From: Candidatus Parvarchaeota archaeon
GTDB lineage: Archaea; Nanobdellota; Nanobdellia; CSSed11-243R1
Reading direction: 5' to 3'
Length of the DNA stretch: 36,496 nucleotides
Assembly (NCBI GenBank): GCA_015522785.1
Contig: WALP01000011.1
Location: 1-36,496, forward strand
The notes beneath the pieces are model-generated. The model was given only the letters and a program-made list of their open reading frames with translations, was not told where the DNA came from and did not search any database. The translations under genes were made by a program, and so were the position numbers. Positions 11,394 through 32,986 of the stretch are shown in pieces. Each line of letters starts with the position of its first letter. The stretch's first letter is position 1.

Positions 11394-11519
11394 GCGCCGG
11401 TAGTCTAGAAACCCTTTCTTAAAAGAAAGCGTTTACGGAAAGAACTGAGAAGGGGTGGGCAATGGTTAGGATAGGGCGTTGCCAACGCTCTGACCCGGGT
11501 TCAAATCCCGGCCGGCGCA
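11394..11519 (+). tRNA. tRNA-Gly(GCC) with an intron in the D-loop
   Basis: Acceptor stem GCGCCGG 11394-11400 pairs with CCGGCGC 11512-11518, and A11519 is the discriminator. D-stem GTCT 11403-11406 pairs with GGAT 11469-11472. Anticodon stem GGGCG 11474-11478 pairs with CGCTC 11486-11490, with anticodon GCC at 11481-11483. The T-arm is CCGGG/CCCGG around TTCAAAT. The gene is 126 bases long, and removing 54 bases (11409-11462) leaves a standard 72-base tRNA with D-loop AGTGGTTA. An intron between positions 15 and 16 is non-canonical; most archaeal tRNA introns sit at 37/38. The gene carries no CCA. Confidence 0.93.
11409..11462 (+). other. tRNA-Gly intron, D-loop position 15/16, 54 nt
   Basis: Cutting after AG 11407-11408 and after AA 11461-11462 restores a normal D-loop. 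Exon GTCT 11403-11406 pairs with intron GGGC 11457-11460 as the central helix. The inner helix can pair 11411-11420 with 11447-11456 over ten pairs including G-T. The 3' bulge is AAT; the 5' bulge is four bases (AGAA), so this is a relaxed bulge-helix-bulge. An alternative internal hairpin is CTTTCTT/AAGAAAG-like at 11414-11429. The body matches the tRNA-Arg anticodon intron over CCCTTTCTT, AAAGAAAGCG and CGGAAAGAA. Confidence 0.8.
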
Positions 11520-12189: not shown

Positions 12190-12237
12190 CGCATCTTTCT
12201 TTGGGAAAGAAAGCTGCACCAAAGAAATTGCGGACAA
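12190..12237 (+). other. tRNA-Val intron 1, D-loop position 15/16, 48 nt
   Basis: Same insertion point and flanking exon bases as in tRNA-Gly (GTCTAG before, TGGTTA after). The central helix is exon GTCT 12184-12187 with intron GGAC 12232-12235; bulges are AG|C and AA|T, a good three-base pair of bulges. The inner helix is GCA 12191-12193 with TGC 12229-12231. It contains a perfect 8-bp hairpin CTTTCTTT 12195-12202 with AAAGAAAG 12206-12213. The 18 bases 12208-12225 are identical to the minus strand of 27321-27338. Confidence 0.82.
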
Positions 12238-27122: not shown

Positions 27123-27196
27123 GGGCCCGTAGTTTAGCTTGGATAGAACATAAGGTTGCGGACCTTATAACTCGGGTTCAAATCCCGACGGGCCCT
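27123..27196 (+). tRNA. tRNA-Arg(GCG), no intron
   Basis: Acceptor stem GGGCCCG 27123-27129 pairs with CGGGCCC 27189-27195, with discriminator T27196. D-stem GTTT 27132-27135 pairs with GAAC 27146-27149. Anticodon stem TAAGG 27151-27155 pairs with CCTTA 27163-27167, with anticodon GCG at 27158-27160. T-arm TCGGG/CCCGA encloses TTCAAAT. A20 follows the GG of the D-loop, as in arginine tRNAs. TATA box CATTTATAA at 27092-27100 lies 27 bases upstream. It is uninterrupted, but intron-like hairpin elements begin five bases after it. Confidence 0.95.
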
Positions 27197-27200
27197 TTCA

Positions 27201-27245
27201 ATCTTTTCTTTATGAAAGAAACATATACGGAAGAAAATGTTTTTC
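27201..27245 (+). repeat. Free-standing intron-like element E1 (type I)
   Basis: Directly behind tRNA-Arg(GCG). A hairpin TTCTTT/AAAGAA at 27206-27220 is followed by TATACGGAAGAAAATG, which resembles the body of the tRNA-Gly intron (TTTACGGAAAGAACTG) and of the tRNA-Arg anticodon intron (GGCGGAAAGAA). AACAT 27220-27224 can pair with ATGTT 27237-27241. It is in the same direction as the tRNA. It could be a former intron or a trailer structure. The match is partial. Confidence 0.45.
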
Positions 27246-27292
27246 TCTTGGTCCAGCTTCTCTTTTCTAAAGAAAAGGTGGTTCTTTTGCTA
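27246..27292 (-). repeat. Free-standing intron-like element E2 (type II, inverted)
   Basis: On the minus strand it reads ACCACCTTTTC, hairpin, GAAGCTGGACCAAGAG. The hairpin is CTTTTC 27262-27267 with GAAAAG 27272-27277. It has the same layout as E3 and E4: a CACC start, a pyrimidine/purine hairpin, then CTG-ACC-AAGAG. It lies head-to-tail with E3, so the two form a small tandem array. Confidence 0.55.
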
Positions 27293-27299
27293 AAGCTTT

Positions 27300-27366
27300 T
27301 CTTTCTAAGAGAAGGTTTTCTCTTTGGTGCAGCTTTCTCTTTTTAAGAGAAAGGTGCTACGAAAGA
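27300..27366 (-). repeat. Free-standing intron-like element E3 (type II, inverted)
   Basis: The minus strand begins AGCACCTTTCTCTT (27358 downward), identical over 14 bases to the start of the T-loop intron of tRNA-Arg(CCU) at 32769. After the hairpin AAGAGAAAG it continues CTGCACC then AAAGAGAAAAC, again matching that intron. The first hairpin is nine pairs, 27333-27341 with 27345-27353. The second is AAGAGAA 27307-27313 with TTCTCTT 27318-27324. Bases 27321-27338 equal the reverse complement of tRNA-Val intron 1 bases 12208-12225. The end abuts the TATA box of the next gene. Confidence 0.7.
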
Positions 27367-27396: not shown

Positions 27397-27684
27397 ATGG
27401 GTGCTAAAAAAGATCTTTATACTTTCTTCCTACGCAAGAAACCAGTTAAGATACTTGTTAGCTTAGCGAAGGACCATAAGCTTAGATATGCATCAGTTCT
27501 AGCCAAAGAGGTTGACTGCACATATTCTCACACAGTTAGAATCCTAAAAACAATGGAAGAACACAAACTTGTCGAGTTCGACAAAAAGGGAAGACTAAAA
27601 ACCCTTAAACTTACTCCTCTCGGCTCGGAGATAGCAGAACATCTCTCAAAGGCAATGAGATTGTTCAAAAAGGCAGAAAAATAA
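27397..27684 (+). CDS. Small winged-helix DNA-binding protein
   Basis: A 95-aa stand-alone winged helix. Helices at residues 13-24 and 29-38 lead into the recognition helix CTYSHTVRILKTMEEHKLV (residues 40-58), and the wing is EFDKKGRLKTLKLTPLG (59-75), as in MarR/ArsR-like archaeal regulators. There is no ligand domain. A TATA-like ATTTATTAAAG at 27366-27376 lies 27 bases before the ATG and overlaps the end of element E3. It ends exactly where the convergent second winged-helix gene ends, so two HTH proteins face each other. Confidence 0.85.
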   Translation: MGAKKDLYTFFLRKKPVKILVSLAKDHKLRYASVLAKEVDCTYSHTVRILKTMEEHKLVEFDKKGRLKTLKLTPLGSEIAEHLSKAMRLFKKAEK

Positions 27685-32693: not shown

Positions 32694-32746
32694 CAGCCCT
32701 TTCTTATAAAGAAAGCGCTGGCGGAAAGAAAAATCCGCATCGGGTA
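32694..32746 (+). other. tRNA-Arg(CCT) intron 1, position 37/38, 53 nt
   Basis: In the canonical position: the anticodon stem is the outer helix, 3' bulge TA|A. The central helix is weak (CTC with GGG including a G-T pair, then a mismatch). The body has hairpin CTTTCTT 32699-32705 with AAGAAAG 32709-32715, extended by CAGC 32694-32697 with GCTG 32717-32720, and a second hairpin GCGGA 32721-32725 with TCCGC 32734-32738. It shares CCCTTTCTT, AAAGAAAGCG and CGGAAAGAA with the tRNA-Gly D-loop intron. Confidence 0.83.
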
Positions 32747-32768: not shown

Positions 32769-32834
32769 AGCACCTTTCTCTTTTAAAAAAGAGAAACGTG
32801 CACGAAAGAGAAAACTTTCGTGGGTGCATGAGTG
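32769..32834 (+). other. tRNA-Arg(CCT) intron 2, T-loop position 59/60, 66 nt
   Basis: Exactly as long as the tRNA-Val T-loop intron and with the same fold. TTCA 32763-32766 pairs with TGAG 32829-32832 (central), and GCACC 32770-32774 with GGTGC 32823-32827 (inner). Hairpin 1 is 32775-32783 with 32788-32796, hairpin 2 is 32801-32808 with 32815-32822. One extra base (A32828) again lies between the inner and central helices. Bulges are AA|A and TG|T. Its first 14 bases match the minus strand of element E3. Confidence 0.86.
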
Positions 32835-32879: not shown

Positions 32880-32945
32880 CCAATAAATTCTTTCTTTTGA
32901 TGCAGCTTTTCTTTCTTGAAAAGAAAGAAAAGGTGCTTCTATTGG
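32880..32945 (-). repeat. Free-standing intron-like element E4 (type II, inverted)
   Basis: On the minus strand it reads AGAAGCACCTTTTCTTTC, hairpin (CTTTTCTTTCTT / AAGAAAGAAAAG, 32906-32931 region), then CTGCATCAAAAGAAAG. The layout is the same as E3 (GCACC, hairpin, CTGCACCAAAG). A closing 6-bp stem CCAATA 32880-32885 / TATTGG 32940-32945 brackets it. It lies 31 bases after tRNA-Arg(CCT), as E1-E3 lie after the other tRNA-Arg, so both Arg tRNA genes carry these elements downstream. Confidence 0.6.
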
Positions 32946-32957
32946 ATTATCCAATAG
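32939..32957 (+). promoter_or_regulatory. 19-bp perfect palindrome upstream of the HTH surface protein gene
   Basis: CTATTGGAT and ATCCAATAG are exact inverted repeats around one T. The palindrome ends directly before the TATA-like TTTTTAAG at 32959-32966, in the BRE region, and 30 bases before ATG 32987. It could be an operator for the winged-helix gene downstream. As RNA it is an 8-bp hairpin followed by a short T run, so a terminator for the tRNA or E4 transcript is the alternative. Confidence 0.5.
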
Positions 32958-32986
32958 ATTTTTAAGCATATATTTTGTAGCGTATA

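Follow-up and report, generated by a model that had tools for sequence, protein, structure and literature searches.

Eukaryotic introners are mobile elements of small size that give rise to numerous new introns and duplicate their target sequence, and some repeats of the REP/MITE type are moved by Y1 transposases. Introners are mentioned in a passage of PMC11782384, and REPs have been described as short palindromic repeats (PMC3733652). Among Archaea, transposition of tRNA introns is known in the Thermoproteales from 2010 work cited in passages of PMC4033280 and PMC8450103, which also record heavy tRNA intron loads in this group, and in Caldiarchaeum mobile DNA has been tied to the disruption of tRNA genes (PMC3293823). 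Here we analysed a window of 36,496 nucleotides from a Candidatus Parvarchaeota archaeon (contig WALP01000011.1, assembly GCA_015522785.1), in which the spacer behind a tRNA-Arg(GCG) gene carries three hairpins, E1 to E3. We propose, with a probability of about 0.78, that in this array three copies of a mobile element of roughly 40 nt are lined up head to tail, and that copies of this element become tRNA introns when they are spliceable. The family is apparently non-autonomous.

The family is like that of the Thermoproteales, as presented in these passages, in that similar introns occupy several positions in different archaeal tRNAs and appear to have spread by movement. It differs by copies that also lie outside tRNA genes, by a mirror-tailed core, by target duplications and by its host, a small archaeon with a congener whose endonuclease is single-domain and of the M. 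jannaschii type. Introners are likewise short, mobile, intron-creating and target-duplicating, but they yield spliceosomal introns in protein genes, whereas the introns considered here are of the bulge-helix-bulge kind, lie in tRNA genes and have a different structure. REP/MITE repeats share the short size, the many copies, the hairpins, the extragenic location and the non-autonomous character; here, however, no Y1 transposase was detected in G000-G005, the target duplications are long, a third strand co-varies and some copies are intronic. As in Caldiarchaeum, tRNA intron gain and scattered tRNA fragments are linked to a mobile element, but the Caldiarchaeum element is 1.8 kb long and codes for a recombinase (PMC3293823), whereas the present family consists of dozens of non-coding copies of roughly 40 nt. 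A search of the open-access literature brought up no account of the element, of its mirror tail, of its copies between genes or of the duplicated targets.

The tRNA-Arg(GCG) gene upstream of the array (27123..27196, plus strand) was recognised as intron-less by ARAGORN and by Rfam (RF00005, 63.6 bits), and the spacer behind it ends downstream at a winged-helix ORF starting at 27397. No ORF of at least 80 aa overlaps 27201-27366. In an Rfam scan of the window, tRNA was the sole match (rRNAs and SRP RNA were matched elsewhere in the genome), the element matching no known RNA family. The preliminary description had already reported an intron-less tRNA, a spacer without gene and three hairpins in 27201-27366; all of this was confirmed, with the amendment that the hairpins are all read on the minus strand. 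They follow one another head to tail over 27240-27357, antisense both to the tRNA and to the downstream ORF. E3 (27316..27357, minus strand), found by a structural descriptor and by a covariance model (E=1.1e-10), has the core GCA / C / CTTTCTCTT / AAA / AAGAGAAAG / C / TGC / ACC / AAAGAGAAAA. E2 (27282..27318, minus strand; descriptor with one arm mismatch allowed, model E=1e-4) reads AAA / C / CTTCTCTT / AGA / AAGAAAAG / C / TTT / AGC / AAAAGAA, its arm having one C·A mismatch, and E1 (27240..27281, minus strand; descriptor, model E=3.8e-10) reads CCA / C / CTTTTCTTT / AGA / AAAGAGAAG / C / TGG / ACC / AAGAGAAAAA. A possible degenerate fourth copy in the opposite orientation, CTTTTCTTTATGAAAGAAACATATACGGAAGAAAA, was seen by eye only at 27205..27238 on the plus strand; it was missed by both descriptor and covariance model, and a comparable decayed sequence lies beside another array, on C3.

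The copies share a common plan, in which a helix a/a' of 3-4 bp is followed by a C×C or U×C mismatch, a pyrimidine:purine helix (mostly 6-12 bp), a loop (2-4 nt), a linker (3 nt) and a purine tail R', the whole element measuring roughly 40 nt. A bulge-helix-bulge reading of E3 (GUAGC/GCUGC with ACC bulges) was rejected, the mismatch hairpin fitting all copies instead. The sequence of helix a/a' is free to vary while its pairing is kept (GCA/UGC, CCA/UGG, AAA/UUU, ACAC/GUGU and others). Over 19 aligned copies, pairing holds in 94.7% of the cells and covariation scores 0.632 versus 0.280 in shuffles, but as the copies were selected partly on pairing this number is not independent evidence for the structure; that evidence is the genome-wide excess over simulated sequence. 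Indeed, the descriptor found 56-58 copies on both strands of the 579-kb archaeal genome, against 0 and 1 matches in two Markov-1 simulations of one strand each, which places the similarity well above chance. Without other genomic copies and without a transcript from either strand, according to the preliminary description, only simple polypurine/polypyrimidine similarity would have been left. Such a chance likeness of low-complexity DNA can be regarded as already refuted: the arms are of low complexity and the 3'-half pattern alone does arise by chance in viral DNA (42 exact matches in viral contigs), but simulated genomes gave 0-1 matches per strand, each tail matches its own arm specifically, and the full structure was found in none of the 42 viral matches, so that viruses were also rejected as carriers.

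The specific match between tail and arm has a defined order. Although the descriptor demanded only that the tail R' be purine-rich, with no mirror match required, R' repeats the 3' arm in reverse order with an agreement of 99.1% in this genome, 98.7% in G002, 97.0% in part of G001 and 99.6% in other genera, whereas agreement in direct order reaches 87.6-92.2% in the same four sets. When tails were paired with the arms of other copies, the mirror values were never attained in 500 shuffles. Copy by copy, mirror was preferred to direct order by 28:0, 30:0, 19:1 and 11:0 in the four sets, the remainder being ties, and the non-tRNA copies alone gave 98.4% mirror agreement and a preference of 8:0. 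These counts overstate the number of separate events since copies related by descent are not independent, an effect that is limited by the agreement spanning several genera. Two other readings of the tail, direct repetition of the arm and pairing with the Y arm, were ruled out by the mirror test. Considering the three strands together, 1353 of 1370 three-way cells are T-A-A or C-G-G. Moreover, E3 and its ortholog in G002 (C9:48125) differ in arm length and sequence, and all three strands have changed together. A purine third strand running antiparallel along the purine arm would require just this mirror order. The covariation is therefore most simply read as a fold-back structure of three strands, which might take the form of a purine-motif triplex. 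Where the pyrimidine strand extends into the loop as CC, the tail extends as GG (11/11 cases), which a simple triplex does not require; the tail thus tracks the pyrimidine strand at least as closely as the purine arm, and the contacts of a simple triplex are not implied.

The covariance model found 60 copies in this genome, 77 in each of two congeners and 11-28 in three other genomes of the same family. Copies were present in 16 of the 38 genomes searched, the window's own included, and, under stricter filters, in 39 of 279 genomes of a phylum-wide sample. About 40 copies in this genome lie in tRNA genes (D-loop, anticodon loop or T-loop) and at least 17, classed by hand, lie outside them, among them copies in the 16S-23S rRNA spacer, beside the SRP RNA and at the beginning of a gene read as threonyl-tRNA synthetase-like (ThrRS-like). 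The copy of the 16S-23S spacer (G000 C28:43384-43419), which could affect rRNA processing, is accompanied by related hairpins directly 3' of the 16S rRNA gene. Within the window, a non-tRNA copy shared with G002 lies behind tRNA-Arg(CCT) (32888..32936, minus strand; descriptor, model E=9.3e-8). Between this copy and a plus-strand ORF, a near-perfect palindrome, TCTATTGGATAATCCAATAGA, occupies 32937-32962 and is partly shared with G002. Another variant, CCGCCTTCTT..AAGAAGGCAGGTTGCCAAGAA, was also observed within or close to the 5' parts of tRNAs (G000 C11:9500, C11:16700, C29:21600, C30:17760), with repeated tRNA 5' fragments alongside.

The preliminary description had related the array to tRNA introns, and rightly so, the same core being found in both. 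E3 shares with the T-loop intron of tRNA-Arg(CCT) the exact sequences AGCACCTTTCTCTT (27345-27358, minus strand; 32769-32782, plus strand) and AAGAGAAAAC (27315-27324, minus strand; 32806-32815, plus strand), and direct reading of the sequence bears out that 27321-27338 is the exact reverse complement of 12208-12225. The descriptor placed the core, always on the plus strand, as the D-loop intron of tRNA-Gly(GCC) (11409..11444), as the D-loop intron of tRNA-Val(TAC) (12191..12227) and within both the anticodon-loop intron (32694..32733) and the T-loop intron (32770..32814) of tRNA-Arg(CCT). Computed excision restores tRNA-Gly(gcc), and so does removal of both introns for tRNA-Val(tac), whose second intron is in the T-loop, and for tRNA-Arg(cct). 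Overall, once the element and a short tail are cut out in silico, ARAGORN recognises a restored tRNA for 22 of the 38 tRNA-located copies, many of the others lying in genes that hold additional introns, versus 1 of 17 other copies, which adjoins tRNA-Gly; excision of E1-E3 restores no tRNA. Near-identical T-loop introns, GCACTTTCTCTCTTTGAAAAGAGAGAACCTGCGCTAAGAGAGAAACTTGGCGAGTGTTTGAAAG, recur in several different tRNAs (G000 C29:42815, C28:40588 and others), as if copied between T-loops. Two elements placed head to head on opposite strands were also seen within each of two single tRNA introns (G000 C26:5106-5186 and C30:24819-24899).

The splicing motif itself was searched with a strict bulge-helix-bulge scan, which retained 7 of the 38 tRNA copies versus a control mean of 4.1, so that the support it lends to the splicing step is weak. 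Some introns do have canonical motifs, for example CCGG-AGA and CCGG-AAU in one intron of G002. One splicing endonuclease was detected in each of G001 and G002; that of G002 is single-domain and resembles the M. jannaschii enzyme, a type that is homotetrameric and said to cut canonical motifs only (PMC4033280). No strict motif was found in the 17 non-tRNA copies, E1-E3 included, which also spoke against the bulge-helix-bulge reading of E3. This result bears on one of the readings first offered for the array, that of ejected introns, according to which tRNA introns released by splicing as RNA, whether linear or circular, were reinserted between genes as DNA copies, E1-E3 being dead introns. The core common to non-tRNA copies and tRNA introns would fit, but the non-tRNA copies have this shared core only, generally without the 3' part of the intron needed for a full splice motif, target duplications abut the first base of the core and not a splice site, and a search of G000-G003 detected no reverse transcriptase. 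We consider ejected introns unlikely.

These target duplications were found by comparing the left flank of each copy with the sequence downstream, gaps of 0-8 being allowed between the left copy of the repeat and the element. A direct repeat scoring at least 14 was present for 9 of 204 copies, against 0.5 expected with flanks exchanged; target-site duplication, as found in mobile elements, is thus observed. The duplications are 14-29 nt long. The left copy reaches exactly to the first base of the element in each of the nine cases, whereas the right copy begins 0-91 nt past the tail, which indicates a precise 5' end and a variable 3' end. A 28-nt duplication in G024 lies at the start of a gene that reads as pilin-like, and one of 14 nt in G029 lies at the 5' end of a tRNA. 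Tandem arrays with a unit made of the element and its adjoining flank or duplication were found in G275 (L192:1501-1640, period about 48 nt) and in G006 (L085). A check for duplications at the edges of the present array had also been proposed; none was detectable around E1-E3, which counts against the mobile reading, and most copies show none, probably owing to age or reshaping.

Copies also differ between relatives at orthologous sites. At the array site, the spacer is short and empty in G004 and G005 (sister genus). It lacks an element in G003, where the anticodon loop of the tRNA carries one. G001 has a tRNA with a T-loop intron followed by one plus-strand element, and G002 has relatives of E3 and E2 plus others that are oppositely oriented. 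At another locus, a tRNA to which ARAGORN assigns the anticodon CAT carries a T-loop intron that G002 lacks at this position. At the start of the ThrRS-like gene (G000 C29:6111-6152, minus strand), an element is accompanied by a perfect 20-nt duplication, ATGAAATTACTTCAGTGGCA, which copies the start codon and is present as a single copy in G002. Copies are therefore present or absent at orthologous sites, as expected of a mobile element. Another of the initial readings, a structured RNA, was considered in the form of a functional RNA or a regulatory DNA element that is conserved downstream of the tRNA gene. It would agree with the sharing of E3 with G002 and the joint change of its three strands, yet it is very improbable for a site that is empty in G004 and G005, elementless in G003 and filled with copies differing in number and orientation in G001 and G002. 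Together, the turnover at orthologous sites and the exact-junction duplications argue for a mobile family over either ejected introns or a conserved local RNA. The third initial reading, a donor cassette, came closest, the array being a small pile-up of such a family.

A serious alternative, although we think it rather improbable, is that errors of host replication produced the copies and their flanking duplications without a dedicated enzyme: forks would stall at the hairpin, polymerases would switch templates and tandem duplications would result. Duplication lengths vary (14-29 nt) as polymerase template switching could produce, tandem repeats of duplication plus element exist, and known mobility enzymes were not detected in the nearest genomes: Y1 transposase (PF01797) and Cas1 (PF01867) in G000-G005, although copies abound there, and reverse transcriptase (PF00078, RVT_1) in G000-G004. 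These genomes are incomplete, and with G001 and G002 at about 91% the absence of these families is likely rather than certain. On the same grounds, we rejected as described movers an IS200/IS605- or REP-type element moved by Y1, a group II intron or other retroelement, and CRISPR/casposon-type integration. Against replication errors, none of the nine clear cases departs from an exact 5' junction, and one structure has been kept across dozens of dispersed copies despite sequence change; both observations favour a unit that replicates and is under selection.

We therefore retain the mobile family as the preferred reading. The element would insert at staggered or target-primed breaks, and the suggested three-stranded fold might be recognised during movement. 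Insertion at the end of a tRNA gene would leave the gene whole by virtue of the duplication, and copies placed outside tRNAs, such as E1-E3, would persist as non-intron copies. Inside a tRNA, a copy would be kept only where a bulge-helix-bulge arose from the core, the tail and the duplicated target; the splicing endonuclease would then remove it, turning the inserted copy into an intron. Whether these elements of roughly 40 nt constitute an undescribed class of mobile elements of small archaea, recognisable by three strands folded together, by target duplications of 14-29 nt and by a role as source of new tRNA introns (an archaeal equivalent of introners), is in our view an even bet; the mover would in that case be an undescribed or host-encoded mechanism.

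The gain of archaeal tRNA introns at odd positions is an open question, for which a 2014 review calls for snapshots of the insertion event (PMC4033280). The present family supplies such snapshots in its empty and filled orthologous sites, its target duplications and its copies in and outside tRNAs. Its co-varying purine tail is a structural signature that is directly testable in vitro and makes the family searchable. The family may thereby show how archaeal tRNAs gain introns.
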